64,000 bases of DNA from Catenuloplanes atrovinosus (lineage in GTDB: Bacteria > Actinomycetota > Actinomycetes > Mycobacteriales > Micromonosporaceae), in the NCBI RefSeq assembly GCF_031458235.1, contig NZ_JAVDYB010000001.1:5938001-6002000 (forward strand), read 5' to 3'. Positions 35,231 to 54,516 of the stretch are shown one piece after another (position 1 is the first letter of the stretch; the number at the start of each line of letters is the position of its first letter). The translations under genes were made by a program, and so were the position numbers. The notes below the pieces were generated by a model. The model saw only the letters and a program-made list of their open reading frames with translations, was not told the DNA's origin and searched no databases.

Positions 35231-36414
35231 CGCGCTCTCCGGGGTCTCGGGGTCTTCGCGGTGGAGGCCGGTGCGGGGGCGTACCGGGCGGCGGCCGGGC
35301 GGGCCCTCGCCACGTCGCCGTCCACGGTGACGAGCGCGAACCTGCCCAGCACGGCCAGCGCCTCGGCCAGCAGCCGCTGCGCGCCGCCGTCCGAGCGGTA
35401 GGTGCGCGCCCACGCGGGCAGCTCCGCGAACCGGGCCACTATCTGCTCGGCCAGCACGGCGGTGGGCACCGGCGCCGGGTGCGCGGCCAGGACCGAGTCG
35501 AGCAGCAGCAGCGCGGTCTGGGCGGCCACGCTGTTCTCCGCGGGGAAGCGCTCGTCGGTGGCGAGCGCGTCCGGGTCGATCGCGAGCATGCCCTCGGCGC
35601 GCTCCTCCAGTTGCAGGCCCGCCTCCTCGACCGCGGCCCGGATCGCGCGCCGGCCGGGGGCGCTCGTCGCGTACGCCCGCTCCGCGTCGTCCAGCTCATC
35701 GAGGTAGACCACCGGGTCGTCCAGCAGGCGGCGGATCACCGTGTGCCGCAGCCGATCCGCGTCGTCGTCGTACCGGTCCTCGCGGACCAGCGCGGACACG
35801 TCCGGGCCGGGCAGCCGGGACGGCGGCTGCGGCGCGGAGAGCAGCCGGGCCAGCCGGGTCGCGTCCACCCGGTAGAGCACCTTCGCGTCCGCGTGCTCCA
35901 GGTAGGCGTCGGTGCTGCCGTCGGTGGCGGTGAGCACGCCGAACCGCTCCAGCATCATCAGCGCGTCCACGTAGGCGCGCCGGTCCTCGCGGCTGGCGCT
36001 GTCGAACGTCGGTATCGCCGGCTCGACCGCGGTGGCCTGGGTCAGCCGGCCGGCCAGGATGCCGATCGTGGTGACCTGCCCGGTGAGCAGCTCGGCCGCG
36101 AGCACGCAGAACAGCGCGTACCGGCGGCGGTCGAACGGGTCCCGGTTGCCGCGCGGGCGGCGCGGCGGGCGGGTGCCGTCCGGCCGGGCGGAGACCTTGG
36201 CCAGCCGCGCGTAGCCCTGCCGCGCCTCCACGGACAGCCGCCAGCCGGTGTGCTCCGCGAACCACGGCACCAGCTCGGCCGCGTGCCGCGCCACCAGGAA
36301 GAAATCGTCCGGGTCGACGGCGCGGGTGAGCAGCGGCCGGGCCAGCAGCGCCCGGATCGCCTGCGCCCGCTCGAGGTCCCGTTGCCGATCGAGCTCCGAC
36401 CGCAGGTCGGTCAT
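35227..36414 (-). CDS. jetB: JetB-like protein (TIGR02678 family)
   Basis: 395 aa from ATG 36414. Matches the TIGR02678/DUF2398 family: ELDRQRDLERAQAIRALLAR, DPFDRRRYALFCVLAAELLT, tandem winged-helix-like segments, and C-terminal RARPAAARYA. Comparable to MksE/kite subunits that bridge the kleisin and the SMC heads. Its start shares ATGA with the end of the repeat-encoded micro-ORF (36411-36638), and its stop shares ATGA with jetC, so translation is coupled across the cluster. Confidence 0.9.
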   Translation of the reverse strand: MTDLRSELDRQRDLERAQAIRALLARPLLTRAVDPDDFFLVARHAAELVPWFAEHTGWRLSVEARQGYARLAKVSARPDGTRPPRRPRGNRDPFDRRRYALFCVLAAELLTGQVTTIGILAGRLTQATAVEPAIPTFDSASREDRRAYVDALMMLERFGVLTATDGSTDAYLEHADAKVLYRVDATRLARLLSAPQPPSRLPGPDVSALVREDRYDDDADRLRHTVIRRLLDDPVVYLDELDDAERAYATSAPGRRAIRAAVEEAGLQLEERAEGMLAIDPDALATDERFPAENSVAAQTALLLLDSVLAAHPAPVPTAVLAEQIVARFAELPAWARTYRSDGGAQRLLAEALAVLGRFALVTVDGDVARARPAAARYAPAPASTAKTPRPRRAR

Positions 36415-36638
36415 GCCGGTCTTCCGGCGGTGCTGCGGCGCCCCTGTGGTCGGCGCTGAGCCAATGATTCGCTCGCAAGCTCGCATGTGCCGGGCTCCGC
36501 GCGCACACTGCGATCCCAGCGTGGTCGGCGCTGAGCCAATGATTCGCTCGCAAGCTCACATGTGCCGGGCTCCGCGCGCACACCGCGATCCCAGCGTGGT
36601 CGGCGCTGAGCCAATGATTCGCTCGCAAGCTCGCTCAT
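36411..36638 (-). CDS. Repeat-encoded intercistronic micro-ORF between jetA and jetB (75 aa)
   Basis: Starts MSELASESLAQRRPRW. It consists of MS, two 25-residue repeats (ELASESLAQRRPRWDR-G/S-VRAEPGTC) and a 23-residue end segment finishing GRPA. Its ATG overlaps the jetA stop (ATGA) and its stop overlaps the jetB ATG (ATGA). The same arrangement with one or zero internal repeats occurs at 39790-39942 and 54439-54516. I see no known domain. It may serve only to carry ribosomes across an inserted repeat. Translation is inferred from frame and overlaps. Confidence 0.6.
   Translation of the reverse strand: MSELASESLAQRRPRWDRGVRAEPGTCELASESLAQRRPRWDRSVRAEPGTCELASESLAQRRPQGRRSTAGRPA
36446..36638 (-). 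repeat. 75-bp tandem intercistronic repeat, locus 1 (2.5 units)
   Basis: The core GTGGTCGGCGCTGAGCCAAT and the 17 bases after it recur at 36446, 36521 and 36596, spaced exactly 75 bp. The spacer contains CATGTGCCGGGCTCCGCGCG. The last unit ends in GCTCAT at 36638, the start codon of the micro-ORF. Confidence 0.95.
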
Positions 36639-38215
36639 GCCGTGGCCTCGCGCCGGAAGGCCGGGCGCAGCGGGACCGGGGCGGCCTGGCCGGGGCGGGA
36701 CTCGCTGATCGAGACGATGAAGTCGGGGGCGACCAGCACGCCGCGCGCGGTGCGCAGGTACGCCAGGTGGTGGTCGGGCGGCGGGAGCAGCACGACCACG
36801 AGCCGGCCGTCCGCGGTGGAGGCGCGCCGCTCGCCCTTGCGCGCCGGCACGGTCAGCGCGCGGGCCAGCAGCTCCAGCAGGCGGGAGAAGCTGCCCTGGT
36901 CGAGCCGGGCGAACGCGGACAGCCGCACCGGGCCGGGCGTGGCCAGCCGCGACCACGCCTCCTCCAGCTCCAGCCGCTCGCGCAGCGCGCGCTGCCGGCG
37001 CTGCTCGCGGATCTCCGTGGTGTCCCGCACCCGGGCGGTGCGCGAGGCGCGGTCGGACTGCCCGTGCGTGCGCAGCAGCGGCGACACGTGCACGCCGGGC
37101 GCGGCGAACCACGACGTGCTCGGCCCGACCGCGGTCGGGTCGTCCGGCGCCAGGTGCGTGTGCCGCGCGGACCACAGCCCGGTCGCGGCCGCCCACAGCT
37201 CGTGCGCGGTCTCGTCCGACTCGGCGGTGGAGAACCAGCGGGCCAGCGTGCGGAAGTCCGCGGCGGTGCTGGACCCGCGGCGGCGGCTCTCGCTGAGCCG
37301 CTCCAGCGCGCGCATCAGCGCCACGATCGCGCGGCGGGCCGTGTCGGCCAGTTCCTCCACCCGCGCCCGCCCGCCGTCGGCGGGCCGGAACCAGGCGCGC
37401 AGCCCGGCCCAGCGGGCGGCGCGCTGCTCCAGGAAGCGCGGGGCCGGGTCGGCGTGGCCGGGCAGCGCGGGCAGGTCGGCGCCGCGCAGCGCCCGCGCGT
37501 GCAGCGCCTCGACGCCGCGCTCCTCCACCCGGGCCACCGCCTCGGCGATGGTGAGCCGGCGCGCGTCCAGGTCGGTCACGAAGTCGGTCAGGTACGCGAT
37601 CGTCGCCTGCTTGAGCTCCTGGAACGTGGCCGGGTCCGCGCCCTCGTCGCGCAGCAGCCGCTGCAGCCGGCCGTTGAACCGGATCACGCCGGACCGCAGC
37701 GCCGCGAGGTGGCCCTCCAGCTCGGTCAGGGCGGCGTGCACGCGCCGGTCGTCCGCGCCCTCGTCGGCCTGCAGCGCGTCCAGCTCGCCGAGCCGGGCGG
37801 CGATCCCGTCCAGCACCGAGACGGGCAGCGCGCCGGCGTCGTCCAGCAGGTCGAGCGCGTGCAGCAGTCCCTGGTACGCGGCCTCGCCCTTGCGGCTCAG
37901 CGAGTAGTGCAGGTTGCGGCGCTCGTACTCCGCGGCGGAGGCGTAGTGCGCGGCGTGGTTCTGCGTGCGGTCGACCAGGCCGTGCTTGTGGAGCGCGCCG
38001 AGCGTGTACTCCAGTGACTCGTCGGAGACCGGCTCGTACCACCCGATCTCCGGCAGCCCGGCCAGGACCTCATCGAACGTCAGCACCGCGGTCAGTCGCT
38101 CCGCGGCCTCGCCGAACACCTGCATGACCGCGGTGTGCAGGTCGGCCCGCTCGGTGGTGGTGAAGGCGAACATGTCCGCCGGCACGCGCCGGAAGGCAGG
38201 GCGTGCGTCGCTCAC
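36635..38215 (-). CDS. jetA: JetA-like protein (TIGR02677 family)
   Basis: 526 aa from GTG 38215, preferred over the upstream ATG because GGAGGAGGGG stands 6-15 bp upstream. Matches TIGR02677/DUF2397: FAFTTTERADLHTAVMQVFG, YTLGALHKHGLVDRTQN, ADFRTLARWF, and the late RLSAFARLDQGSFSRLLELL. Equivalent to the kleisin-type subunit that closes the SMC ring. Terminator-like hairpin and promoter space upstream suggest that jetA heads its own transcript. The stop overlaps the micro-ORF start. Confidence 0.9.
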   Translation of the reverse strand: MSDARPAFRRVPADMFAFTTTERADLHTAVMQVFGEAAERLTAVLTFDEVLAGLPEIGWYEPVSDESLEYTLGALHKHGLVDRTQNHAAHYASAAEYERRNLHYSLSRKGEAAYQGLLHALDLLDDAGALPVSVLDGIAARLGELDALQADEGADDRRVHAALTELEGHLAALRSGVIRFNGRLQRLLRDEGADPATFQELKQATIAYLTDFVTDLDARRLTIAEAVARVEERGVEALHARALRGADLPALPGHADPAPRFLEQRAARWAGLRAWFRPADGGRARVEELADTARRAIVALMRALERLSESRRRGSSTAADFRTLARWFSTAESDETAHELWAAATGLWSARHTHLAPDDPTAVGPSTSWFAAPGVHVSPLLRTHGQSDRASRTARVRDTTEIREQRRQRALRERLELEEAWSRLATPGPVRLSAFARLDQGSFSRLLELLARALTVPARKGERRASTADGRLVVVLLPPPDHHLAYLRTARGVLVAPDFIVSISESRPGQAAPVPLRPAFRREATA

Positions 38216-38338
38216 CCGCGTCCCCTCCTCCGCCGGTGCCTGGATGTCTGTGGCCGGGTCGTGTGCGGGGCCGATCGCGGACCCCATGGCAGGCTACAGG
38301 TCCGGCCGGGCTTACGCTTCGACCCGAGTGCCCCTAAA

Positions 38339-38353
38339 CCCGGACATTCCGGG
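38339..38353. terminator. Hairpin between helicase gene and jetA
   Basis: Six-bp stem CCCGGA/TCCGGG with a 3-nt loop. On the minus strand it is followed by GTTTAGG and lies 76 bp beyond the helicase stop; on the plus strand by CTTTTCC. It probably separates the nuclease-helicase transcript from the jet transcript. Confidence 0.5.
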
Positions 38354-38428
38354 CTTTTCCCTGGTCCGCCGACCTGAGAAACATCCACGACCACGACTTG
38401 ACCCGGTACGCTCCGCCTGTGACGCCGG

Positions 38429-39793
38429 TCATACCCGTTGACGCGGAGCGACGACGCGGTGCGCGCTCAGGTGAGCCAGGATCGAGTGGTTCGCCTCCCA
38501 GCCGTCCGGGAACCTGACCGGCACGTTCAGGTGCACCGGGTCGGTCGACGGGTGCGCGTCCAGCAGGTCCGGGATGCCGGCGCGGGCCACCACGATGCAG
38601 GCGTGGCGGTGACGCGACGTGAGCACGCACAGGCGCCCGGACTCGAGGTGGAACGCGGTGGCGTCGCGGCGGCCGGAGAGCGGGTGCAGCACCACGGTCA
38701 CGTCGTACTCGCGGCCCTGGAGGCGGTTGGCGGTGTCCACCGTGATCGTCTCGCCGGGGGTGCCGCGCAGCAGGTTGCGGATGACCGCGGCCTGGTCGCG
38801 GTGGGCGGTGCCGATCGCGATCCGGCTCGCGTCCACCGGCGCGCCGTCCCGGGACCGCTCGGAGACCGCGACCGCGCCGGCCGACAGCACCCGCAGCGCG
38901 AGCGCGGCGCAGGCGGCGGCCGCCTCTCCGTCGGTACGCAACGTGTGGCGGGCCGGCAGCTCGTAGAGCGCCCAGCCGGTGGCGGCCGCCTGCGCCACCG
39001 CGGCGTCGACCGCGTCCGGATCAGGCCCGGCGACGGCCGGAACGGGAGCGCCGACGGACCCGGCGTCCAGCACCAGCGCGCGGTCCTCCGGCCGGGTGCC
39101 GGCGCGGAAGCCGGTGAACGGGTAGAACGCGGGCGCGACCACCTCGGCCGCGGACGGCGGCAGCCGCCAGGAGACCGGGAGCCGGTGGACGGGCAGGCCG
39201 GGGTTGTGGCGCAGCAGCACGGAGACCGCGCTGAGCATCGGGTCCCAGGTCAGGCCGGTCCAGCGCGCCGACTCCACGGTGGAGAAGGGATCGAGCTGGC
39301 CGGGGTCGCCCACGAACAGCGCGCGGGAGAACCGGGACGCCACCCGCAGCAGCGCGTCGGAGCGCATCTGGTACGCCTCGTCCACGATCGCCCACGCCCA
39401 GGAGCCGTCGCCGACCGTGGCCCACTTCGCGGCCGTGGCGATGATCACCGAGCCCTGGCTCACGTCGCCGATCTTGGCGCCGACCGTGACGGACCGGTGC
39501 TGCGAGACCCGCTCGGACGCGCGGTAGTCACCGGCGGACAGCCGGCCGATCGGCAGCTCCGGCGCGGCCGTGGCGAGCCGGTCGATCAGGTCGTCGACCT
39601 GCTCGTTCGTCTGCGCGATGACGATCAGCTGCTCGCCGGCCGCGGCCAGCACCTGCGCGGCCCTCACCACCAGCGTGGACTTCCCGGCACCGGGCGGCGA
39701 GTCCACCACCACGCCCCGGTGCGCACCCCGGCCCAGATCCGCCAGCACCGCGTCCACCACGGCGTTCGCCGCCACCCCCGGCGGGGCGCTCAT
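38429..39793 (-). CDS. UPF1/DNA2-like SF1 helicase
   Basis: 454 aa. Walker A SPPGAGKST (32-40), Walker B IVDEA (136-140), motif III FVGDPGQLDPF (160-170), motif V RLQGREYDVTVV and motif VI LTSRHRHACIVV near the C terminus. These are AAA_11/AAA_12 helicase motifs, in a compact protein without extra nuclease domain. Its ATG overlaps the micro-ORF stop at 39790. It belongs with the nuclease and the 509-aa protein upstream; the trio resembles a DNA-processing or defence module. Confidence 0.88.
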   Translation of the reverse strand: MSAPPGVAANAVVDAVLADLGRGAHRGVVVDSPPGAGKSTLVVRAAQVLAAAGEQLIVIAQTNEQVDDLIDRLATAAPELPIGRLSAGDYRASERVSQHRSVTVGAKIGDVSQGSVIIATAAKWATVGDGSWAWAIVDEAYQMRSDALLRVASRFSRALFVGDPGQLDPFSTVESARWTGLTWDPMLSAVSVLLRHNPGLPVHRLPVSWRLPPSAAEVVAPAFYPFTGFRAGTRPEDRALVLDAGSVGAPVPAVAGPDPDAVDAAVAQAAATGWALYELPARHTLRTDGEAAAACAALALRVLSAGAVAVSERSRDGAPVDASRIAIGTAHRDQAAVIRNLLRGTPGETITVDTANRLQGREYDVTVVLHPLSGRRDATAFHLESGRLCVLTSRHRHACIVVARAGIPDLLDAHPSTDPVHLNVPVRFPDGWEANHSILAHLSAHRVVAPRQRV

Positions 39794-39942
39794 GCCGGGC
39801 CGCCAGCGACGCCGCGGTCCCAGCGTGGTCGGCGCTGAGCCAATGATTCGCTCGCAAGCTCACATGTGCCGGGCTCCGCGCGCACACTGCGATCCCAGCG
39901 TGGTCGGCGCTGAGCCAATGATTCGCTCGCAAGCTCGCTCAT
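39790..39942 (-). CDS. Repeat-encoded intercistronic micro-ORF (50 aa)
   Basis: MS, one 25-residue repeat (ELASESLAQRRPRWDRSVRA then EPGTC) and a 23-residue end segment finishing GGPA. ATG overlaps the stop of the 509-aa gene (39939) and the stop overlaps the helicase ATG (39793), both as ATGA. See 36411-36638 for the same design. Confidence 0.6.
   Translation of the reverse strand: MSELASESLAQRRPRWDRSVRAEPGTCELASESLAQRRPRWDRGVAGGPA
39825..39942 (-). repeat. 75-bp tandem intercistronic repeat, locus 2 (1.5 units)
   Basis: Core copies start at 39825 and 39900, again exactly 75 bp apart, near-identical to those at 36446-36638. Confidence 0.95.
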
Positions 39943-41468
39943 GACCAGTCCTCCGCCGCCGCGTGGTCGCCCTGGTCGAGGGGGTCGTCGGCGATCGAGT
40001 AGTGCGGTGGGCCGCCGTGGGTCCAGGGTGTCTCCTCGCGGGACGGGAACGTGCCCGGCGGCGCGTAGCCGAGGCTGAGGCTGGTGTAGCAGATCCGCTC
40101 CCCCACCTCGGGCACGCTGCCGGGCGGCGCCTTGAGGCCGCGGCCCATGCCGCCGGACAGCTCCAGCACCACCTCGGTCTTGTCGCCGTCCTCCACCGGC
40201 GTCACGTAGATCACGCGCGCCTTCTGGGCCGGCTTGGACGGCGAGACCAGCGTCGTACCCTCGGTGAACAGCACCGGATCCGTGGTCACCACCTGGATCC
40301 GGGGGCGCAGCACCGGGCGCTTGCCGGTGTCGTCCACCCGGGTCGGGGCGGAGAGCGTGACCTCGCCGACGAACGCCTCGCCGCCCAGCCGGTGCTCCGC
40401 CATGATCAGTGGATCGTCGAACGCGCGCTCCACCGCGTAGGTCTGCATGGCGCGCTCCAGCTTGTGCAACCGGGTCGCGGCCGCCACCGCGCCGTCCCGC
40501 CGGGCCTGCGGCGCGCCGCCGCCCTGCACGTAGAGCGAGAAGTCGCTGAACACGTCGCGGTCCTGCGCCCACCGGCCCTCGACCGACGCGCCCGCCGGCA
40601 TCGCCCGCATGATCCGCAGGCCGCGCCACATCAGCTCCCAGGTCGGCGCCAGCTGGCCGCGGAGCAACTCCTGGAGCTGCCGGTACGCCTCGCGCTCCGC
40701 CTCCGGATCGTCCGACTCGGACGCGGCCCGGTAGACGTCCATGGCCGGGCCGAGCACGTCGTTGTCGAAGCCGGGGTCGGTGGCCGGGCCGGCCGGCGGG
40801 CACACCTCCGGGTCCTCCGCGCGCCGCGCGGCCTCGGCGCCGGTGCTGCCCGGCGGCGGCGCGATCCAGTTGACCAGCGAGCCGAGGTGCGCGTCCTCGT
40901 GACCGCTCTGCCCGGTGGCCCAGTGCGCGGCGAGCAGGTCGGTCATGGACAGCAGCATGGACGAGCCGGGCTGCTCCGCCCGATCCGCGAAGAACGTCAA
41001 CCACCGGCCCAGCAGCGGTACGGACGGGTGCACCGGATAGTCGCCGTCGGTGCGCCGGAACCGGGTGGACCGCCCGAACAGCCGGACGAACCCGATGCCG
41101 GCCGGCGCGGGCACGATCACCTGCGGCGCCTCCAGGTAGCGGTAGCGCACGTCCCGGCCGCGGTCGGTGGCGACCGCCTCGGTGGCCGCGCAGAAACCCT
41201 CCACGTACGGCAGCAGGATCTCGGCGAGCCGGGCCGCGAAGTCGAAGCGCTGCGCGCGGTCCCGGGGCTGCGGCACGATCAGCAGCTCGGGCCGGTTCTC
41301 GTCGGTGCCGAGCATGGCGGCCAGCGGCGCGTTCGCCTCGCCCGCCATGGTCAGCGGGATGAAGACCAGCGGCAGGTCGGAGAGGTGCGCGTGCCGTACC
41401 GTGGCGATCGGTTGTGCCCGTCCCGCCACGACCGCCTGCGCCTTGGCCAGCGAGGTGAGCGTGCTCAC
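39939..41468 (-). CDS. Unrecognised 509-aa protein between nuclease and helicase genes
   Basis: Start GTG 41468 overlaps the nuclease stop by 4 nt (GTGA). No family is recognised. Visible features: mixed alpha/beta N-terminal half (LSDLPLVFIPLTMAGEANAP; VIVPAPAGIGFVRLFGRSTR), a helical middle (EREAYRQLQELLRGQLAPTW), and a beta-rich C-terminal third (FVGEVTLSAPTRVDDTGKRP; KARVIYVTPVEDGDKTEVVL). No membrane segment or signal peptide. It is conserved in position with a nuclease and helicase, so it probably joins them in one complex. The long frame extending into the nuclease gene is a shadow. Confidence 0.75.
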   Translation of the reverse strand: MSTLTSLAKAQAVVAGRAQPIATVRHAHLSDLPLVFIPLTMAGEANAPLAAMLGTDENRPELLIVPQPRDRAQRFDFAARLAEILLPYVEGFCAATEAVATDRGRDVRYRYLEAPQVIVPAPAGIGFVRLFGRSTRFRRTDGDYPVHPSVPLLGRWLTFFADRAEQPGSSMLLSMTDLLAAHWATGQSGHEDAHLGSLVNWIAPPPGSTGAEAARRAEDPEVCPPAGPATDPGFDNDVLGPAMDVYRAASESDDPEAEREAYRQLQELLRGQLAPTWELMWRGLRIMRAMPAGASVEGRWAQDRDVFSDFSLYVQGGGAPQARRDGAVAAATRLHKLERAMQTYAVERAFDDPLIMAEHRLGGEAFVGEVTLSAPTRVDDTGKRPVLRPRIQVVTTDPVLFTEGTTLVSPSKPAQKARVIYVTPVEDGDKTEVVLELSGGMGRGLKAPPGSVPEVGERICYTSLSLGYAPPGTFPSREETPWTHGGPPHYSIADDPLDQGDHAAAEDWS

Positions 41469-42553
41469 GGCACGAGCTCCGCGCGGAGCCGGTGCGCGGC
41501 CCGGAGCAGCGCGGCGGCCTCGGCCTGCTCCGGCGTGGGCTCGATCGCGCCGGTGGCCAGCGCCAGCACGGTCCGCACGTCCTCGATGCCGCCCAGTTCC
41601 TCGCGCACCGACCGGCCGAGCACGGCGGTGGCGGTGCGGGCCTCGTCGCGGCAGAAGAACGACAGCTCGCAGGTGGCCAGGCAGTCCGGCGCGTAGCGGG
41701 CGGAGACCGCTCGCACGTCCGCGATCAGCTCGGCCGGGTCGCGGGTGGGCTCGCCGTCCTCGCCGGCCCGCAGGTCGAACGTGATCCCGTCGGGGAGCCG
41801 GTCGAGCAGCGCGTCGATGCCGGCCATCCGGGACAGCTGGCGGCGCAGCACCGCGAGCTGCCGCCGCACGTCGATCATGCTGGAGATCGGCGTGTTGGAG
41901 AAGTCCTTCGGGCAGACCAGCAGCACCTCGTGCGAGACCGTCTCCGGGTCGCGGCCGGCCTCGGCCAGCGCCTCGCGCAGCGCCAGCACGTAGACCGCGG
42001 CCTGGGTGGCGGCCGCGGAGACCTTGCCCGGGTCGGCCTGCTCGTCGATCACCGGGAAGGACTTGATCTCGACGATGTGGTAGCGGCCGTCCACCTGGAA
42101 CGCGACCAGGTCGGGCTCGAGGTAGACGTGCTTGCCGGCGACCGCCAGCCGCAGCATCGGGTGATCGAGCAGCGTGTCCGGGTTGTCGCGCAGGGCCTCG
42201 AGGGTACGGGCGTAGCGCTCCTCGTTCGACGCCTTGGGCCCGCCGGACAGGTCCAGGTACTTCGGGACCTCGACGCCGAGCAGGCCGACCAGTTCGGCGC
42301 CGTCGTTCGCCTTGAGCCGCGCCTCGAAGACGTTGCCGCGCACGATCGCGAACGAGGACTGACCGAACCGCCCCGGGAACCCGATGTGCTGGGCCACCCT
42401 CATCTTGTCGACGCCGGCGCCGTCCATCACCGCGCGGCGGTCGCAGCCCGGGTTGCCGGTGAGCGCGGCGATCGTGCGGGCGTTGTGGCGGCGCGGGGCC
42501 ACCGGGCCGCGGAGCCGGGCGAGCCGGGCGTCCGGCGTGCGGGTCTGCGCCAT
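41465..42553 (-). CDS. Cas4/AddB-like PD-(D/E)XK nuclease with Fe-S cysteines
   Basis: 362 aa from ATG 42553 (an earlier start at 42628 is possible). RecB-family nuclease motifs: GNVFE with Glu77, PD at 147-148, EIK with Glu162 and Lys164 (YHIVEIKSF), and QxxxY (Gln184, Tyr188). One N-terminal cysteine (Cys37) and three C-terminal ones (Cys291, Cys295, Cys301) match the split 4Fe-4S staple of Cas4 and AddB. Expected to cut or resect DNA. First gene of the minus-strand module; coupled to the next gene by a 4-nt overlap. Confidence 0.85.
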   Translation of the reverse strand: MAQTRTPDARLARLRGPVAPRRHNARTIAALTGNPGCDRRAVMDGAGVDKMRVAQHIGFPGRFGQSSFAIVRGNVFEARLKANDGAELVGLLGVEVPKYLDLSGGPKASNEERYARTLEALRDNPDTLLDHPMLRLAVAGKHVYLEPDLVAFQVDGRYHIVEIKSFPVIDEQADPGKVSAAATQAAVYVLALREALAEAGRDPETVSHEVLLVCPKDFSNTPISSMIDVRRQLAVLRRQLSRMAGIDALLDRLPDGITFDLRAGEDGEPTRDPAELIADVRAVSARYAPDCLATCELSFFCRDEARTATAVLGRSVREELGGIEDVRTVLALATGAIEPTPEQAEAAALLRAAHRLRAELVP

Positions 42554-42650
42554 CCGAGCAAGGTACAACCTCGCGGCGGGAAAACCGGGAAGAGGCGCGG
42601 CGTGTCGCACAAATGTACGGCACACCACGCCTATACAGTGATATATCGGT

Positions 42651-43523: not shown

Positions 43524-43707
43524 GTCGTTGTACTCCCTGCCTCGATCGGGGAACCGCAGCTCGGGGACGGATGCGGTTCGACGGACATCGATCAGGGTGC
43601 GCGTTCGGGCGGCCCGCGTGCATCGGCGAAATCACCGGTCTCGACCGCGCCCTCGCACGTGATCTAGGTTGTGAGCTGCGAAGATCAGGTCGGGCGGAGG
43701 GTGGCGC

Positions 43708-44337: not shown

Positions 44338-44458
44338 CCGCGCCGCGGGTCCCGGCGAGCACTGAAGCCGGCCACCGACGGATCAGACGTGACCGCGCCG
44401 CGAGCCCGGCCGCTGCGGCCACCAACGTGGTTTGAAGCCGGCCACCCACGGATCAGAC
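44335..44458 (+). repeat. Imperfect tandem duplication after the acetyltransferase gene
   Basis: GTGACCGCGCCGCG and TGAAGCCGGCCACC-ACGGATCAGAC occur in the same order twice (44335-44388 and 44389-44458), the second unit carrying about 16 extra bases. It runs directly into copy 3 of the intergenic repeat. Confidence 0.75.
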
Positions 44459-44528: not shown

Positions 44529-44540
44529 ATCGAAAAGGGT

Positions 44541-46817: not shown

Positions 46818-46907
46818 GCCCGAAAAGTCGGCAACAGCGCCCGCAGGGTTAGATTTTCGCTGGTCAGGGCAGTCAGTGGGGAGGCACGCGGAATAGGGAG
46901 GACGGCG

Positions 46908-47960
46908 ATGTCACTACTGCACCGGCACCGCAATGAGACGAAGAAGGACAATCACGACAAGGAGTCACCGGCGCGGAGCGACGCCAAGGACGCGCCCAAG
47001 GACGACGCGGGCGGCGGACCGGTGCCACCGGAGGCCGGCCCGGACAGCCCCGCCCAGCTCAGCGGCAACTCACTGTGGAACGCGGTGAAGCGGACGATCG
47101 CCGAGTTCCAGGACGACAACCTGTCCGACTGGGCCGCCGCACTCACCTACTACGGCGTCCTGTCCATCTTCCCCGGACTGCTGGTGCTCGCGGCCGTCCT
47201 CGGCCTGCTCGGCGACGACACGCTCACCCGCGTGGTGGACAGCGTCCGGCCACTGCTGCCGGCCGAGACCACCCAGATCCTGGAGAGCATGGCCGGCCAG
47301 CTCAGCGCCGCCGACACGTCATCCGGCCTGATCGCGCTCGTCGGTCTCGCCGGCGCGTTTTGGTCCGCATCCGGCTACGTGGGCGCGTTCATGCGCGCGT
47401 CCAACGCCATCTACGAGGTGCCGGAGGGCCGCCCGGTCTGGAAGACGCTGCCGATCCGGGTCGGCGTCACCGCGCTGGTCGGCCTGATGCTGATCGCCTG
47501 CGCGGTCATCGTCGTGTTCACCGGCGGCCTCGCCGACCGGGTCGGCTCCGCGATCGGCCTCGGCGAGGCCGCCGTGACCGTATGGGACATCGCCAAGTGG
47601 CCGGTGCTGCTGGTGATCGTCAGCCTGATGTTCGCGGTCCTCTACTGGGCCTCGCCGAACGCCAAGACCGGCGGCTTCCGCTGGGTCACCCCGGGCGGCT
47701 TCGTCGCCGTGCTGCTCTGGGTCGTGGCGTCCGCGGGCTTCGGGTTCTACGTGGCGAACTTCGGGTCCTACAACAAGACGTACGGCACGCTGGCCGGCAT
47801 CATCGTCTTCCTGGTCTGGCTGTGGATCTCCAACATCGCCATCCTGTTCGGCGCGGAGATGGACGCGGAACTGGAGCGGCGGCGCGCGATCGCGGCCGGC
47901 ACGCCCCCGGACAAGGAGCCGTTCCTGGAGCTGCGCGACGACCGCAAGGTGAAGAAGTAA
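46908..47960 (+). CDS. YihY/BrkB-family membrane protein
   Basis: 350 aa from ATG 46908, preceded by AGGGAGGA. A charged cytoplasmic N-terminal tail (~55 residues), then the BrkB pattern: DNLSDWAAALTYYGVLSIFP, FWSASGYVGAFMRASNAIYE, and NKTYGTLAGIIVFLVWLWIS, with six helices. Family members were once called RNase BN in error; the function is unsettled. Ends with a strong terminator. Confidence 0.93.
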   Translation: MSLLHRHRNETKKDNHDKESPARSDAKDAPKDDAGGGPVPPEAGPDSPAQLSGNSLWNAVKRTIAEFQDDNLSDWAAALTYYGVLSIFPGLLVLAAVLGLLGDDTLTRVVDSVRPLLPAETTQILESMAGQLSAADTSSGLIALVGLAGAFWSASGYVGAFMRASNAIYEVPEGRPVWKTLPIRVGVTALVGLMLIACAVIVVFTGGLADRVGSAIGLGEAAVTVWDIAKWPVLLVIVSLMFAVLYWASPNAKTGGFRWVTPGGFVAVLLWVVASAGFGFYVANFGSYNKTYGTLAGIIVFLVWLWISNIAILFGAEMDAELERRRAIAAGTPPDKEPFLELRDDRKVKK

Positions 47961-47973
47961 CCCCCACACGAGA

Positions 47974-48001
47974 ACGGCCCCCGGTACGCACCGGGGGCCG
48001 T
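47974..48001. terminator. Bidirectional terminator after BrkB gene
   Basis: Perfect 12-bp stem (47974-47985 with 47990-48001), loop ACGC, followed by TTCC. It is flanked by the BrkB stop (47960) and the convergent YtxH stop (48023), so it serves both. Confidence 0.9.
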
Positions 48002-48022
48002 TTCCGTGGAACTCGCTGACGA

Positions 48023-48349
48023 TCAGATCGAGGTGTTGCTGCTCCGGGAGCCGGCGAACGTGTCGTCGGCCGCGGTGATCGAGGAGGTCGGGGTGGTGCT
48101 GGTGCTGGTCGACGTGGTGTTCGTCGTCGCCAGCCGCTCGCCGAGCTTGCTGTGCGCCAGCTTGTCCTTGCCCTCGCTGTACAGCCGGTTCGCCTGCGCC
48201 TGCGCGACGCCGGCGGCCTCCTGCACGGTCGGGTGGTCCAGGACCTTGCGGGCCTGCACCCGCAGCTCCTCGTACTTCTCCCGGCCGGCGCGGGCGCCCA
48301 GGACGAAGCCCGCGGCCAGCCCGCCGATGAACAGAAGCTTTCCGCGCAT
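48023..48349 (-). CDS. YtxH-like small membrane protein
   Basis: 108 aa from ATG 48349 with GAGGAG upstream. MRGKLLFIGGLAAGFVLGAR is the single helix with the glycine-rich YtxH motif, then AGREKYEELRVQARKV and a Thr/Ser-rich tail. YtxH proteins are general-stress proteins of unknown mechanism. Upstream in-frame extension runs into the tRNA and is not real. Confidence 0.85.
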   Translation of the reverse strand: MRGKLLFIGGLAAGFVLGARAGREKYEELRVQARKVLDHPTVQEAAGVAQAQANRLYSEGKDKLAHSKLGERLATTNTTSTSTSTTPTSSITAADDTFAGSRSSNTSI

Positions 48350-48607
48350 GTTGGCGGCTCCTCTCGTGCCTTGACGCAGCACCGCCCTGCGGGCAGCGCT
48401 GTCGCGCCTGTCGTTCGTTGCTGCCGGGGTACGTACCCATCCTGCCCCCGCACCATGCCCCCATGTGCGGTAGTCGCGGAAATGTCCGAAAACCTGGCAC
48501 GTGGCCTTCGGTAACCCGGTGGCAGAACCCCCCAGTGGGTCATGTAAGGTTATGCCCGTCGCCAGGGAGCGGAGAGATCCGCGGGCCTGGGGCCACAACT
48601 GAAACGA

Positions 48608-48680
48608 TCCCCTGTAGCTCAATTGGCAGAGCAGCCGGCTGTTAACCGGCAGGTTATTGGTTCGAGTCCAATCGGGGGAG
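48608..48680 (+). tRNA. tRNA-Asn (anticodon GTT)
   Basis: 73-nt cloverleaf: acceptor TCCCCTG/CGGGGGA, D-arm TAGCTCAATTGGCAGAGC, anticodon stem CCGGC around loop TGTTAAC with anticodon GTT, T-loop TTCGAGT, discriminator G. CCA is not encoded. Confidence 0.97.
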
Positions 48681-48691
48681 CGAGATCCCTG

Positions 48692-48730
48692 GATCCCCCC
48701 TGCCCGCGGAGAGCGCGGGCAGGGGGGATC
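48692..48730 (+). terminator. 17-bp perfect hairpin after tRNA-Asn
   Basis: 48692-48708 pairs without mismatch with 48714-48730, loop GAGAG. It lies 11 bp after the tRNA and probably ends its transcript. Confidence 0.85.
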
Positions 48731-49548
48731 TCGCATTCTGCTCCGGGGCCGAGCCCCGGAAACCCCACGGTCCGGTGGTGGCGTTGCGTGGGTCGGCGCA
48801 GGTTGCGTACTACGGGCGGAGATCTTTCGGGCTCCGGTGCGGTGGTTGCGTTACGCGGGTCGGGGTGGTTGCGGGCCTTTCCGGCGTTGCTTTACCTCCG
48901 CTTTCTTCGCTGTCGGCTTTCCCGCCCGGGCGGCGCTACTCTCCCTCTGCGCTGCACTCGGCATCGCCCTCCCCGCTCCGCGCCACGTTCCCCTCCGCGT
49001 CGACCTCTGCGCCGCTCCCCTCCGCACCACGTTCCGCTCCGCGTCGCCCTCTGCGCCGCTCCCCTCCGCGCCGCCCCCTCCGCGCCCTCTGCGCGCCGCC
49101 CCCTCCGCGCCGCCCCTTCCGCGCCGCATCCGTGTTGCGTCGTTTTATGCGTCGATTAGGAGGATCGCGGGATCGGGAGACCGGCGGCGTGGTGCCTCGG
49201 CGGGCGTGGTGCTGGGCGCCATGTTCTCCGCGCTGGCGGTCGTAAAGCTGGTGATCATGGCGGATTCGGTAGCGCCGTTGCGGTCGGCGTGCCGCTGGAC
49301 ACCGGTGGTGGTCCGCTGGCTGCTGGCTGCTGGCGCGCGCTGGTACACGACCTGGGCGACCGGATGCGGTGGGGGAGCCGGCCGTCCCGTTGGGGGTATG
49401 CACGATTCACCGAAGAAGGACGGCCGGTTGATCTCCGTTTAAGCGATATTCGGCCGATATAGGCGAGGTATGGCTTGATCAAAGGTGGCCTGTCCCGCCC
49501 GATTGCCGGTGGCCGGGGCACAGGCGTACGGGATACGATCCCCGCGCC
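48731..49548. other. tRNA-to-tRNA gap with pyrimidine-rich low-complexity tract
   Basis: 818 bp between tRNA-Asn and tRNA-Met without a supported gene. From about 48931 to 49135 the plus strand is C/T-dominated, built from variants of CTCCGCGCC and CCCCTCCGCG. This produces long but meaningless ORFs in every frame. The remainder (49140-49440) could hold a small membrane-protein remnant, but no start signal supports it. Confidence 0.5.
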
Positions 49549-49625
49549 GGGGCGGTAGCTCAGCCGGTTAGAGCAGGGGACTCATAATCCCTCGGTCGCG
49601 GGTTCGAGTCCCGCCCGCCCCACCA
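49549..49625 (+). tRNA. tRNA-Met (anticodon CAT, CCA encoded)
   Basis: 77 nt: acceptor GGGGCGG/CCGCCCC, D-arm TAGCTCAGCCGGTTAGAGC, anticodon loop CTCATAA, T-loop TTCGAGT, and encoded ACCA at 49622-49625. Elongator Met is most likely from the loop and GGGG-rich acceptor. A lysidine-modified tRNA-Ile2 with the same anticodon cannot be excluded. It lacks the C-A mismatch expected of the initiator. Confidence 0.93.
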
Positions 49626-49835
49626 TTTGACCTGCGGAAACGTCGCTTTTCGGATCGACGCCCATGGGCGGTCAACCCCCATTGGACGTACACCTTGTCC
49701 GTTTTAGCGGTATTTGCGATCATCGAACGAGAAGATCCATACTTCGCGCCGCACGCGTGATCGAGATCTCATCGACCGGCCTCACGTGAAGCGGCGGGGT
49801 CATCGGCCCCGCCACTCCTCGTCACGTGAGCGCGA

Positions 49836-51206
49836 TCAGCGCAGCACGCCCGGTGCGGCGTCGCCGCCGCCCCAGACGTCCTCGTCCTCCTGGAGCCAGG
49901 TGCTGCGCTCCTCCTCGCCGCCGAAGCCGGCGCCGGGTCCGCCGCCCATGCCGGCCAGCCCGGCCGCGCCCGGGCGGCCGGCGCCGCTCTTGCCGCCGGC
50001 CACGCCGCCGGAGAGCATCGGCTTGCCGCCCTTTCCGGCACCTCCCTTGCCCGCGCCCCGCGCGCCCGCGCCGGCACCCATGCCGCCCATGCCCGCCATG
50101 CCGGCCATCCCGCCGAGCGCGGCGCCGCTGACCGGCTTGCCGAGCGCGCCGCCGCCGGGAAGGCCGCCGGAGCCGATGCCGCCGCCGGAGCCGCCGCCCG
50201 CGCCGAGACCGCCCGCGCCCAGGCCGCTGAGGCCGCCGGAGCCGAGGCCACCGCCACCGAGACCGCCGGTGCCCAGCCCGCCGCCCGCGCCGGCCAGCCC
50301 GGTGCCGGAGCCGGTCTTCGGATCGAAGCCGGTGTCGACGCCGGGCGTGTAGCCGGTACCCGCGTCCGGGTCGAACCCGCTGGTGCCGTCGTTGATCGGC
50401 GGCGTGTACGGGCTTCCGCCGGTCGGGTCGTAGGCGCCGCCGCCGGGAATGCCACCGGAGCCGATGCCGGACGGGTCCGCGCCCAGCTTCGGCGCGCCGC
50501 CCATGCCACCGCCACCGCTGACCCCGCCGACGCCGCCGCTTGGGCCGCCGCTGCCGGTGGGCACCTGCTCGTAGGGCGTCTGGTTGGCAACGTCGACGGG
50601 GGTACCGGCCGGCGTCACCTCGGTCGTGTCGGCGACCTGCCCGTTCAGCGTCTTCCAGTAGCCCAGCGCCTCGTCGCTGCCGTTGGTGACCGCGTCCTGC
50701 ACCGCGGTCCACACCTTCTGCGCGAGCCCGCCGGTCAGCGCGTTGCCGAGATCCCGGTAGGCGCCCATCGCACCCGCGATGTCCACCTTGATCGCGTTCT
50801 CGAACGAGCCGATCGGGATGGTCAGGTATGAGTTCCGCGCCTCCATCACGTCGGGCTGCATGGCGATCGGGATCGGGATCTTCTCCTGCGCCGCGTGCAG
50901 GTCGTCGGCCGTCTTGTTGAGACTCGCGACCACGCCGCCGCCACCGCCGCCGTTCGCCTCGTCCGCGACCTTCTGGATCTTCTCCGAGATGGTCTCGATG
51001 TGCTTCTTGAAGGCCTCGTAGGCCTCGCCCTTCCAGACGGTGCCCAGGTCCTTGACGTTCTGGTCGAGGCTGGTCTTGACGCTGTTCAGGTTGCGCAGCA
51101 CCGCCTCCCAGCCGAGCGCCGCGGTCCGCAGGTCACCGGGACGGCCGTCGATGACCACCTGGTTGACGATGTTCTCCCAGGACTCCTCGCCCCAATTGCG
51201 CGCCAT
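49836..51206 (-). CDS. WxG-type type VII secretion substrate with Gly-rich tail (PPE-like), copy 1
   Basis: 456 aa. N-terminal ~180 residues are helical, with the WxG turn in GTVWKGEAYEAFKKHIETIS. Then ~230 residues of Gly/Ala/Pro-rich low complexity, and a conserved end STWLQEDEDVWGGGDAAPGVLR, shared (with changes) with 55767-57206. It follows a YxxxE-motif partner gene by 3 bp, in the PE-then-PPE order, and a mycosin gene is next upstream. Probable ESX-type secreted or surface protein. Function of the tail unknown. Confidence 0.8.
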   Translation of the reverse strand: MARNWGEESWENIVNQVVIDGRPGDLRTAALGWEAVLRNLNSVKTSLDQNVKDLGTVWKGEAYEAFKKHIETISEKIQKVADEANGGGGGGVVASLNKTADDLHAAQEKIPIPIAMQPDVMEARNSYLTIPIGSFENAIKVDIAGAMGAYRDLGNALTGGLAQKVWTAVQDAVTNGSDEALGYWKTLNGQVADTTEVTPAGTPVDVANQTPYEQVPTGSGGPSGGVGGVSGGGGMGGAPKLGADPSGIGSGGIPGGGAYDPTGGSPYTPPINDGTSGFDPDAGTGYTPGVDTGFDPKTGSGTGLAGAGGGLGTGGLGGGGLGSGGLSGLGAGGLGAGGGSGGGIGSGGLPGGGALGKPVSGAALGGMAGMAGMGGMGAGAGARGAGKGGAGKGGKPMLSGGVAGGKSGAGRPGAAGLAGMGGGPGAGFGGEEERSTWLQEDEDVWGGGDAAPGVLR

Positions 51207-51209
51207 CGC

Positions 51210-51842
51210 CTAGCCTCCGTACGCCGAGTCGCCGGAGGAGGTGCCGTCGCTCGGGTATGAGGCCGGCGTGGCGGTGGTGCCGGTGGCCGGATACCCGGAC
51301 CCGGACCCGTACTCCCCCGTCTGCACCTCGGACGCGAAGACCTGCTCGAACGCCTGCGCCGACATCTCGTTCGCCCGCTCGGCCGTCTCGTACTTCTCCT
51401 TGACCTGCTTCAGCGCCTCGGCGGCCTGCAGCAGTTCCTCGGCGATGGTCCGGACCGACTGCTCCGCGGTCTGGTAGTGACCGAGGTGCCGCTGCGCCAT
51501 CGCCTGCGCCGCGGGGTAGGTGCCGAACGGCGACTTGCCCTGCGCCGAGGCCGGCCCGGTCAGCCAGCTGCCGATGTCGTCGCTCATCGCGGGCAGCAGG
51601 CGGTCACCCAGGTACTTCGAGTGCTCCTCCAGCCAGCGGATCGCGCCGTCCAGGCTGTCGGCATCCCACTCCGTGTTGAGACCCGGGTCGCCGGACGTGC
51701 TGTTGATCTCGGTGGGCTGACGCGCCGCGTTGACGTCGTTCGAGGACCAGAAGCCCACACCCGCCGTCGGCGTGGCCGCCAGCGGCGGTATGAAGACCGG
51801 GGTCACCTCCCGGGCCGGTCCGTTGTTCTCCTCGGCTGTCAT
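51210..51842 (-). CDS. YxxxE-motif type VII secretion partner (PE-like), copy 1
   Basis: 210 aa. A helical-hairpin region (~105-175) carries QAMAQRHLGHYQTAEQSVRT and the type VII export motif YxxxE in KEKYETAERAN. Disordered ends rich in Gly/Ser/Thr. Paralogous to 57211-57837 (WDA-S-LEGAI-WLE-HS-YLG and SPFGT-P shared). Likely forms a heterodimer with the WxG protein encoded 3 bp downstream. Confidence 0.78.
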   Translation of the reverse strand: MTAEENNGPAREVTPVFIPPLAATPTAGVGFWSSNDVNAARQPTEINSTSGDPGLNTEWDADSLDGAIRWLEEHSKYLGDRLLPAMSDDIGSWLTGPASAQGKSPFGTYPAAQAMAQRHLGHYQTAEQSVRTIAEELLQAAEALKQVKEKYETAERANEMSAQAFEQVFASEVQTGEYGSGSGYPATGTTATPASYPSDGTSSGDSAYGG

Positions 51843-51893
51843 CTCGTCTTCCTCCCCGTTGTCACGATGTTCGGTCCGTGGCCGGTACGCCGG

Positions 51894-53279
51894 TCAGCCG
51901 CGGTACGGCGGACCGGGCGGCGGGTATTGCGGGCCGGGCTGCGGTGGGTACTGCTGCTGCGGCGGGTATCCCGGAGGTCCCGGCTGCGGCGGCGGGTATC
52001 CCGGGGAGCCCTGCTGTGGCGGATAGCCGCCCTGCTGCGGTGGATACGGTCCCGGCTGCGGATACGGTCCGGGAGCGCCGACCGGCATCGGCGGGCCGGG
52101 GCGGCGCTTGTTGCCACGCGACGCGGCCGCGATGATCGCCACGACGACCACGACCACCAGGAGCAGGCAGATGCCGCCGGCGATCAGCAGCACCGTGTTG
52201 CCGGCGAGGCCGTCGTCCTCCGGCGCGGGCTCGGCCGCGGTGCCGCCGTCGGTGTCGTCGCCCAGCAGCGGGTTCCGGTCCACCGCCGGCACGTCCTCGG
52301 TAAGCGCGGCGACCGGGTTGACGATGCCGTCGCCGTACTGGCCGTCCCAGCCCTCGGGGCCCTTGTCGTCCGCGGTCCGGATCAGCCGCTCGATCACGTT
52401 GGCCGCGTCGAGGTCGGGGTACTTCGCCCGGACCATCGCCGCCACCCCGGAGACGATCGCGGCGGCCGCGCTGGTGCCGCCGCCGATGCCGTAGCCGCTC
52501 TCGGACAGCGCGGGCGGCTGCGGGCCGATGATGTCCTGGGCCGGCGCGGACAGCACCGCACCCCTGCCCTGGGCGGACTGGGCGGCCCAGAACGCGCCGT
52601 CGGTGCCGATGCCGGTCACCGCGATGACGCCCCGGATCCGCGCGGGCGTGATCACCTCGCGGGCGCCCTCCGAGAGGTTTCCGGCCGCGGCGACCACCAC
52701 CACGTCCTTGCTGAGCGCGTAGTTGACCGCGTCCGCGAGGTACTGGGGCGTCACGGTGCCGCCGCCCCAGGAGAGGTTGATGACCTTGGCGCCGTTGTCC
52801 GCCGCCCAGCGGATGCCGGCCGCGCCGAGCTCCATGCTCTGGTCGTCGGCGCCCACGGCGTACGGCAGGATCTTCACGCCCGGCGCGATCCCGGTCATCC
52901 GGTTCGGCCCGCCGCCGATGCCGGCGATGGTCCCGGCCATGCCGGTGCCGTGCCCGTCCTCCCGGTCGGACCGGCCGTCCGCGGCCTCGCCGTTCACGCC
53001 CTTGCCGGGAAGGACCTGGCCCTGGAGATCAGGATGCGAGGCGTCGACGCCCGAGTCCACGACGCCGACCACGACGCCCGCGCCGTTGCTGATCTTCTGC
53101 GCCTCGGAGATCCTGAGGAGGTCGAAGTACCACTGCTGACGCTCCGCGATCGTCGGCGCCGCGACCGCGGCGGACGGCGACACGAACAGCGCGCCGCCGG
53201 CCAGCATCGCGGCCAGCGTGGCTGCCGTGAACCGGATCACCCCGCCGGTACGGTGGCGCCGGGCTCTGGTGGGCCTCAC
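51894..53279 (-). CDS. mycP: Mycosin-like membrane-anchored subtilisin (MycP, S8 family)
   Basis: 461 aa from GTG 53279 (GGGGGAG upstream). Signal peptide ~15-41; catalytic Asp75 (VVDSGVD), His110 (DGHGTGMAG), oxyanion Asn201 (AAGN), Ser270 (GGGTSAAAA). A C-terminal membrane helix (LLIAGGICLLLVVVVVV) is followed by an unusual ~65-residue Pro/Gly/Gln/Tyr-rich cytoplasmic tail. Mycosins stabilise type VII secretion complexes and clip substrates. Two paralogous substrate pairs are adjacent, but no EccB-E core genes are in the window. Confidence 0.92.
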   Translation of the reverse strand: MRPTRARRHRTGGVIRFTAATLAAMLAGGALFVSPSAAVAAPTIAERQQWYFDLLRISEAQKISNGAGVVVGVVDSGVDASHPDLQGQVLPGKGVNGEAADGRSDREDGHGTGMAGTIAGIGGGPNRMTGIAPGVKILPYAVGADDQSMELGAAGIRWAADNGAKVINLSWGGGTVTPQYLADAVNYALSKDVVVVAAAGNLSEGAREVITPARIRGVIAVTGIGTDGAFWAAQSAQGRGAVLSAPAQDIIGPQPPALSESGYGIGGGTSAAAAIVSGVAAMVRAKYPDLDAANVIERLIRTADDKGPEGWDGQYGDGIVNPVAALTEDVPAVDRNPLLGDDTDGGTAAEPAPEDDGLAGNTVLLIAGGICLLLVVVVVVAIIAAASRGNKRRPGPPMPVGAPGPYPQPGPYPPQQGGYPPQQGSPGYPPPQPGPPGYPPQQQYPPQPGPQYPPPGPPYRG

Positions 53280-53476
53280 CGCTGACTCCCCCTGTCGGAT
53301 TCGATGTGCTGCCGAGAATACGGCCATCCGTACCCCCGGCGGCAATCTCGCCCACCGCGCGGACCAGCCCGCCCGGCGGCGACGACATCCACCTAGATCA
53401 AACTTTCGGGTGCATGCTCCTTCCCCGCGGCTGATCATCGCTGACCCGCGCAAGGCTGCCGTAGGATCACGGACCT

Positions 53477-54442
53477 ATGAGGGAGCTGGCGCGCGAGTCC
53501 CGGGTCCGTGGTTGTCTGCTCGGCGGAGCGGTCGGGGACGCGCTCGGCAACCCGGTGGAGTTCGATCGCGAGCCCGGGGTCACCGACCTGGAGCTGTCCG
53601 CCGACGGCCTCGCGCTGATCACCGACGACACGCAGATGACGCTGTTCACCGTCGAGGGCCTGATCCGGTCCGGCGGCAGCGGCATCCCCGAGGCCGTCTA
53701 TCAGGCCCATCGTCGCTGGTACGACACGCAGTGGCTGCCCGGCCCGCCGGAGCACGCGGACGGGCTCGCCGCCCGGCCGTTCCTCTACGCGCGGCGCGCA
53801 CCGGGCAACGCCTGCCTCAGCGGTCTCCAGCTCGGCCGGATGGGCACGTTCGCGCACCCGGCGAACCCGGACTCCAAGGGCTGCGGCTCGGTCATGCGGT
53901 CCGCGCCGTTCGGCCTGTGGCCGGCGGTGAGTGCGGAGGACGCGTTCGCCCGCGCGGCCGAGTGCGCGGTGCACACCCACGGCCACCCGACCGGTTACCT
54001 GGCCGCCGGCACGTTCGCCGCGATCGTCCGCCACCTGCTGGACGGCGACGACGTCCGCACCGCGACCGAGCGTGCCATCGGCATCCTGACCGCGCGCGAG
54101 CGGCACGAGGAGACGCTGACCGCGCTGCGCCGGGCGCTGGACACGCCGTACGCTGCGGGTAACGCCGGCATCGAGCGGATCGGGCTCGGCTGGATCGCGG
54201 AGGAGGCGCTGGCCATGGCGGTCTACGCGGCGCTCGCGTTCGAGGAGCCGGACCGGACCCGGGACGCGCTGCTCGTCTCCGTCAACCACGCGGGCGACAG
54301 CGACTCCACCGGCGCCATCTGCGGCAATCTGCTCGGCGCCCGGCACGGCGAGGAGGCGCTGCCCGCCGCGTGGGTCGCCCGCCTCGAAGGTCTGGACACG
54401 ATCGGCGAGATCGCCGACGACCTGGTGAAGGCGGGGGCATGA
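53477..54442 (+). CDS. ADP-ribosylglycohydrolase (DraG/ARH-like)
   Basis: 321 aa from ATG 53477. Metal and substrate motifs of the family: GCLLGGAVGDALGNPVEF, ITDDTQMTLFTVEGLI, GCGSVMRSAPFG, and NHAGDSDSTGAICGNLLGA, with the paired Asp ligands present. It removes ADP-ribose from proteins or small molecules. Its stop overlaps the ATG of a repeat-encoded micro-ORF that leads to the alditol oxidase gene. Confidence 0.92.
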   Translation: MRELARESRVRGCLLGGAVGDALGNPVEFDREPGVTDLELSADGLALITDDTQMTLFTVEGLIRSGGSGIPEAVYQAHRRWYDTQWLPGPPEHADGLAARPFLYARRAPGNACLSGLQLGRMGTFAHPANPDSKGCGSVMRSAPFGLWPAVSAEDAFARAAECAVHTHGHPTGYLAAGTFAAIVRHLLDGDDVRTATERAIGILTARERHEETLTALRRALDTPYAAGNAGIERIGLGWIAEEALAMAVYAALAFEEPDRTRDALLVSVNHAGDSDSTGAICGNLLGARHGEEALPAAWVARLEGLDTIGEIADDLVKAGA

Positions 54443-54481
54443 GCGAGCTTGCGAGCGAATCATCGGCTCAGCGCCGACCAC
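54439..54481 (+). repeat. Intercistronic repeat, locus 3 (core only)
   Basis: 43-bp core from ATGAGCGAGCTTGCGAGCGA to GCGCCGACCAC. It is the reverse complement of 36596-36638 with one mismatch (CATCGG for CATTGG). Confidence 0.95.
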
Positions 54482-54516
54482 CACGAATCCGCAGCGGACG
54501 GAGTGGTCCGGCATGA
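54439..54516 (+). CDS. Repeat-encoded intercistronic micro-ORF (25 aa)
   Basis: MSELASESSAQRRPPRIRSG then RSGPA: the zero-repeat version of the micro-ORFs at 36411 and 39790. ATG overlaps the ADP-ribosylglycohydrolase stop and TGA overlaps the alditol oxidase ATG, both as ATGA. Found on the opposite strand and in an unrelated operon. Confidence 0.6.
   Translation: MSELASESSAQRRPPRIRSGRSGPA

Follow-up and report, generated by a model that had tools for sequence, protein, structure and literature searches.

A MIRU-like repeat with gene-overlapping micro-ORFs at start codons of Catenuloplanes atrovinosus

The window analysed here, a stretch of 64,000 nt from Catenuloplanes atrovinosus (contig NZ_JAVDYB010000001.1), carries the same short repeat at three junctions between genes. 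At each of them the repeat forms a small open reading frame (micro-ORF), and all six joins between the micro-ORFs and the neighbouring genes are ATGA, in which a stop and a start codon overlap. We consider it very probable that the repeat is a small mobile element interspersed through the genome, of the same kind as the mycobacterial interspersed repetitive units (MIRUs), and that it inserts at start codons and preserves the translation of the gene by coupling. The elements and their junctions are as follows.

36411..36638, minus strand: array 1, three units with a 75-bp period, one fused micro-ORF of 228 nt and 75 aa, at the JetA2-like/JetB2-like junction
36635..36638, minus strand: array 1, 5' junction, upstream stop and micro-ORF start share ATGA
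36411..36414, minus strand: array 1, 3' junction, micro-ORF stop and downstream start share ATGA
39790..39942, minus strand: array 2, two units with a 75-bp period, one fused micro-ORF of 153 nt and 50 aa
39939..39942, minus strand: array 2, 5' ATGA junction
39790..39793, minus strand: array 2, 3' ATGA junction
54439..54516, plus strand: unit 3, a single unit, micro-ORF of 78 nt and 25 aa, net insertion of 74 bp
54439..54442, plus strand: unit 3, 5' ATGA junction
54513..54516, plus strand: unit 3, 3' ATGA junction

The gene ends at these junctions were matched by an independent codon-usage gene caller, and a 35-base core pattern gave six matches in the window as compared with none in 100 shuffles. 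The three micro-ORFs, of 75, 50 and 25 residues with ATGA on both sides, are as an earlier note on this DNA had described them. The genes on either side are listed below.

36635..38185, minus strand: gene upstream of array 1, DUF2397, JetA2-like (gene caller and family search)
35227..36414, minus strand: gene downstream of array 1, DUF2398, JetB2-like (gene caller and family search)
39939..41468, minus strand: gene upstream of array 2, no Pfam family at an E value of 1e-5
38429..39793, minus strand: gene downstream of array 2, AAA-domain protein
53477..54442, plus strand: gene upstream of unit 3, ADP-ribosylglycohydrolase family
54513..55757, plus strand: gene downstream of unit 3, FAD-binding / D-arabinono-1,4-lactone oxidase family

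The 75-aa micro-ORF of array 1 lies inside a Wadjet-type operon (31124-38185, minus strand) with JetC2-, JetB2- and JetA2-like genes, and four congeners do not have it.

Units, arrays and gene coupling across the genome

We surveyed the 8.9-Mb genome (genus Catenuloplanes, Micromonosporaceae) and found at least 73 sites with 159 units, including 39 multi-unit arrays. Pattern and BLAST searches yielded 57 sites and a profile built from 33 units added 16 more; the site count is a lower bound, with the best 150 of 34,013 first-pass profile candidates scored (156 matches). A genome-wide core search, as suggested in the earlier note, gave 142 matches to a 23-base core with up to three mismatches and none to the reversed pattern; 140 of the 142 lay within the DNA examined and at least two outside it.

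A single unit consists of ATGA, 70 bases and a second ATGA, which corresponds to a net 74 bp and encodes 25 aa. Its first 42 bases are conserved, while the remainder differs among sites and is similar within most arrays, which points to tandem growth of the units in place after insertion. A 74-bp period was observed in 22 of the multi-unit arrays (one includes a 68-bp unit) and a 75-bp period in 15, and two of the 39 are irregular. Every unit of the 74-bp arrays forms a 25-aa ORF of its own, with ATGA as the link to the following one, while the units of the 75-bp arrays are read through as one fused ORF; the 75-bp unit proposed in the earlier note holds for these 15 and does not extend to the 22 with a 74-bp period. 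With the two irregular arrays excluded, the length changes that kept the coupling were -33, -18, -12 (twice), -9, -6, -3 and +3 relative to 74 or 75 bp, those of +1, -5 and -8 resulted in in-frame fusion, and a change of -1 produced the sole broken site.

Upstream of the next start, a Shine-Dalgarno (SD)-like match of at least four bases was present in 38 of 44 terminal units and in 44 of 54 linking units, as compared with 13 of 32 internal fused units, which have no start behind them; the 44 terminal units come from those of the 57 sites where the last unit is a clean one of 74 bp. Units of one site are not independent in these counts; counted by site, the match was observed in 86% of terminal, 89% of linking and 50% of internal fused cases. 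At a few sites without an upstream gene, such as 1796211, a -10-like hexamer was noticed by eye just before the start, and these sites may be leaderless. RNA structure showed no covariation, as none of 10 predicted pairs over 33 units had changes on both sides. A clustered regularly interspaced short palindromic repeats (CRISPR) array, composed of the 37-bp core and a spacer of similar length, was rejected, the 'spacers' being alike within arrays by eye. Carriage by plasmids or phages gave no match in either of the two collections searched, from both of which records near this genome are perhaps absent.

At 71 of the 73 sites the first four bases were DTGA (D being A, G or T), and 66 of these were ATGA. 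A coding ORF (at least 60 codons, G+C content at third codon positions, GC3, of at least 0.85) ended at the 5' junction in 54 of the 73 sites, and most of the remaining ones lie where a gene starts and no clear gene precedes it. The idea that the repeat always lies between two genes thus held in the window and did not hold genome-wide. The DTGA of the last unit was the start of a gene-like ORF (at least 60 aa, GC3 of at least 0.8) in 62 sites. Far from lying mostly off gene junctions or out of frame, as would speak against coupling, the copies led into the gene through an unbroken chain of ORFs overlapping by 4 nt at 55 of the 73 sites; four were fused in frame and one was broken. These counts follow a strict rule, used in place of a looser chain test that accepts any DTGA overlap, and 13 sites were left undecided by it. 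At 2357322, 1711112, 6373216, 3532469, 4250525, 6122278 and 2952916 the ORF of the element is continuous in frame with the downstream ORF, and at in-frame fused sites the repeat may provide an N-terminal extension of the host protein.

Empty sites in congeners

We compared the sites with four congeners (G001-G004), whose DNA on either side of array 1 and array 2 is about 90% identical to that of the window. The genus follows from a 2101-base piece of G001 contig 4 (L157), which is identical over its full length to part of L285, from contig 4 of Catenuloplanes japonicus NRRL B-16061. Forty-one of the 73 sites were searched (the three of the window and 38 of the other 54 then known); regions with a match were taken further, and 30 of the sites passed the alignment threshold, giving 83 site-by-relative pairs. 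An exact empty site, with a net insertion of 0, was found in 41 of the 83 pairs, at 19 of the 30 sites. A single DTGA was kept in 39 of the 41 empty joins (27 ATGA and 12 GTGA), the other two being ATGG and ATCA; some joins were extrapolated over unaligned ends, for example over 54 bases for 7250155 versus G003. These exact empty sites at orthologous junctions suggest past insertion, in agreement with the mobility that the earlier note had read from the repeat.

All three window sites are without the element in all four congeners. The site of array 1 was empty with a single GTGA in G001, G002 and G004, while G003 carried a 23-bp insert instead, and at array 2 (39790) the join was off by 3 bp in three of the four. 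The G003 insert (L066, orthologue of 36411) lies between two GTGA, has a 77-bp-type ending and a length of 3n+2, and may be what is left of a separate insertion into this junction. All 19 sites that were empty in a relative show ATGA at the 5' end here, even where the relatives have GTGA, which would indicate either that ATGA is the preferred target or that the element supplies its own ATGA, the relatives not being independent of each other.

Four sites (83152, 240961, 2939204 and 3676834) were present in congeners with other unit numbers. Site 83152 has two units here as compared with 222, 223 and 0 bp in the relatives, and 3676834 has two units as compared with 74, 0 and 0 bp, a variation observed between species rather than between strains of one species. 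The number of core matches also differed, with 142 in this genome versus 13-30 in the congeners.

Wider family and relation to MIRUs

The 5' head of the element, ATGAGCGAGC-N2-4-GCGAGCGAATCAT, was detected in 100 of 250 Micromonosporaceae genomes, belonging to 16 of 44 genera, with no match for the reversed control. It occurred in at least 120 stretches of the named genomes and, among the matches listed, also in Kutzneria, Nocardia, Nocardioides, Pseudonocardia, Streptomyces, Nonomuraea and others. At one Mycolicibacterium locus (L335, among the matches listed) the head was present and led straight into a 320-aa ORF. The 74-bp-type core, with up to two mismatches, was found in 6 of 61 genomes, the window's own included, and in none outside Micromonosporaceae, and an exact scan of the named genomes with this core gave no match. 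Two of the congeners and a further genome (G001, G003 and G032) carry units of the 77- or 74-bp type; each of the 21 copies parsed there led into an ORF, 18 through micro-ORFs and three by direct fusion.

Of 110 loci of the wider family (L237-L346), 106 carry the tested head, on one strand each. Eighty-eight of these copies were coupled to a gene-like ORF and one more to an ORF of low GC3, while 10 ran straight into an ORF, four lay at a contig edge and three were broken. Control ATGA at the same loci were coupled in 125 of 2749 cases, and exactly one ORF of 14-60 aa stood before the gene in 78 of the 106 copies as compared with 68 of the 2749 controls; the 5' ATGA of the copies was fixed by the choice of pattern, the 3' junction was not. 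Unit lengths were mostly 68-83 bp. The same architecture recurred in other genera; a search of other Micromonosporaceae had been outlined in the earlier note.

Three further arrangements were observed. In Actinocatenispora (L289), two element heads lie within one 39-aa ORF, as if a unit had inserted in a unit. The window's genome holds a copy with a 77-bp-type 3' end, a different head and a 27-aa ORF (L173, G000:C1:1015359). Related units with the same 3' end are present at L177, L178 and L179, in three genomes of one genus (G310, G271 and G378, respectively), G271 having two of them 80 bp apart; the genes flanking these units are presumably cytidylate kinase-like and Der GTPase-like.

According to a 2025 review (PMC12548453), which cites Supply et al. 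1997 for their description, MIRUs are apparently mobile, insert at start codons and contain an internal ORF coupled to the gene at -4 nt. PMC2640374 gives repeats of 77 and 53 bp, a 24-bp deletion apart, for ETR-D, which is a MIRU locus according to PMC3914561. The element shares with MIRUs, as these sources present them, the mobile-looking short repeat, dispersed or in tandem, the insertion at start codons, the ORF whose overlap with the gene behind it is 4 nt (PMC12548453), and lengths of 3n+2 (74, 77 and 80 bp here; 77 and 53 bp in ETR-D, PMC2640374). A unit number that varies between relatives is another trait in common. A similar purine-rich 3' box followed by DTGA is also present in the mycobacterial copies compared. 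In contrast, its 5' head is its own and absent from the MIRU copies compared, its range covers Micromonosporaceae and other actinobacteria, and chained 74-bp and fused 75-bp arrays occur together in one genome. It also differs from the translationally coupling short ORFs and upstream ORFs treated in PMC12548453 in that the ORFs of dozens of sites in one genome all come from a single repeated sequence.

Repetitive extragenic palindromic sequences and bacterial interspersed mosaic elements (REP/BIME) are palindromes located between genes, and no link of theirs to start codons is known. The element resembles them in being short, high-copy, dispersed and non-autonomous, and differs from them in that no covarying hairpin was found here and that its copies lie at starts. 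A literature search for such repeats outside mycobacteria returned none among the top-ranked results, subscription papers being mostly outside its coverage. Taken together, this is a MIRU-like element outside mycobacteria, MIRU-like in kind and, as far as the literature searched shows, new in sequence and range; the coupling arrangement is not new in kind, MIRUs having been described likewise.

Proposed mechanism and alternative explanations

The element would insert precisely at a start codon that opens a DTGA tetramer, in most cases ATGA, leaving DTGA at both ends. Its 70-odd bases contain an ORF free of internal stops, and a purine-rich SD-like stretch and GGCATGA stand at its 3' end. The ribosome would then start on the micro-ORF instead of the gene, either because its start overlaps the stop of the preceding gene or, where no gene precedes it, because the micro-ORF is the first ORF of the transcript, and would finish at the TGA of the element and re-initiate at the overlapping ATG with the help of the SD-like stretch, so that the gene would stay translated. 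Tandem multiplication would yield separate coupled micro-ORFs with a 74-bp period and one fused micro-ORF with a 75-bp period. A trans-acting factor would presumably mobilize the element. The empty sites, the coupling at 55 of 73 sites and the recurrence in other genera support the earlier note's view of a repeat family that spreads into junctions with coupling kept. As to the target, which that note took to be the ATGA gene junction, the start codon is indeed hit, and an overlap of stop and start is not required.

Several observations weigh against this proposal. Eleven of the 30 compared sites had no relative with a net insertion of 0, being shared elements or sites of altered local sequence, and no transposase or other mobilizing factor turned up, no search directed at such families having been made. 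One site is broken (8401087), two are without an intact 5' start and 11 are without a target under the rule. Five of these 11 (1711112, 2357322, 2952916, 4738369 and 8810962) run in frame into an ORF of 269-508 aa, and the other six remain uncertain (58410, 684438, 1512489, 1514288, 2620110 and 3992192), with 1514288 and 3992192 having short ORFs only downstream. Avoidance of in-frame stops within 42 clean units was not significant (1 observed, 2.7 expected), and the variation by codon position in the core (0.076, 0.113 and 0.142) leaves room for some constraint on the peptide.

If insertion into ATGA or DTGA were random and only the copies at start codons survived, no targeting would be needed. 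An insertion within a gene, of net 74 bp, would shift the frame and be lost, and one at a start would be nearly neutral as the coupling is kept. However, ATGA occurs in the window 13 times at gene starts, 48 times at intergenic non-start positions and 128 times in coding sequences (those of its own three elements included), so that avoidance of genes alone predicts about 21% of the copies at starts. The preference seen at 62 of 73 sites is not explained in this way, and the six uncertain sites are the only remaining candidates for non-start copies; we regard survival without targeting as unlikely. It is still harder to sustain, and in our opinion very unlikely, that the micro-peptide is a functional small protein through whose usefulness the repeat spreads. 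The ORF does stay open, the ratio for core substitutions resembling that of nonsynonymous to synonymous changes (dN/dS) is 0.50, and third positions vary most. Nevertheless, counted from the ATG, the GCGAGCGAATCAT box occupies every one of the three frames across subfamilies (head gap of 2, 3 or 4 bases), while 82 of the 89 coupled micro-ORFs in the wider family have 23-28 aa, and the unit alignment shows recurrent L-to-R and L-to-P changes. Codon-position diversity thus speaks weakly for a function of the peptide and the frame strongly against it. The nucleotides, not the peptide, seem to be conserved, because the box lies in three frames while the length of the ORF stays; of the two possibilities named in the earlier note, a peptide that matters and a ribosome bridge, the former is for that reason the improbable one. 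Old, vertically inherited operon leaders or riboregulators that do not move would fit the few sites common to congeners (83152, 240961, 2939204 and 3676834), yet none of the three window sites is occupied in the four congeners, these have far fewer core matches, and no covarying structure was found, which makes this explanation extremely improbable.

A further alternative is that the element belongs to the MIRU sequence family by descent, beyond being MIRU-like, to which we give a little under an even chance. Its 3' box, GAGCGAAGCG-GAGG..CGGC-ATGA, resembles that of the mycobacterial copies, and net lengths are 3n+2 in both. A loose 3'-box pattern gave 63 matches in 20 of 41 genomes of one mycobacterial genus (g40), as compared with three for the reversed control; three of its loci (L201, L211 and L212) resemble chance matches, and L202 and L207 lie before what we take to be RegX3, the original MIRU place. 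On the other hand, the score of the alignment between the element and MIRU consensus sequences was reached by 56 of 2000 dinucleotide shuffles, with a MIRU set picked by means of a pattern in which the matched part is itself contained (4 of 24 g40 loci dropped, three chance-like and one duplicate), and the 5' halves were not alignable. Among 397 genomes of the order, from 85 genera, a stricter 3' pattern with a nearby ATGA, whose gap before ATGA is too short for the MIRUs found by the looser one, occurred in 7 genomes of two genera and in none of g40. In a broader proposal, which we put forward tentatively and with the balance somewhat against it, start-codon-seeking mobile micro-ORFs would form a phylum-wide actinobacterial superfamily with MIRUs as one branch, in which the nucleotide boxes would be conserved, the frame would slide, the length would be held for the terminal DTGA and some machinery would place copies at starts.

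Under our preferred reading, that of a mobile element inserting at start codons, the arrangement known from mycobacteria now extends, in another sequence, to Micromonosporaceae and to actinobacteria beyond them, and one genome offers at least 73 sites together with exact empty sites in sister species. In the annotation of these genomes, many ORFs of 25-27 aa, and some N-terminal extensions, should be regarded as repeat-derived. In these harmless soil bacteria it becomes testable how a mobile element finds start codons, what the coupling costs or gains the gene, and whether an older family includes the MIRUs.

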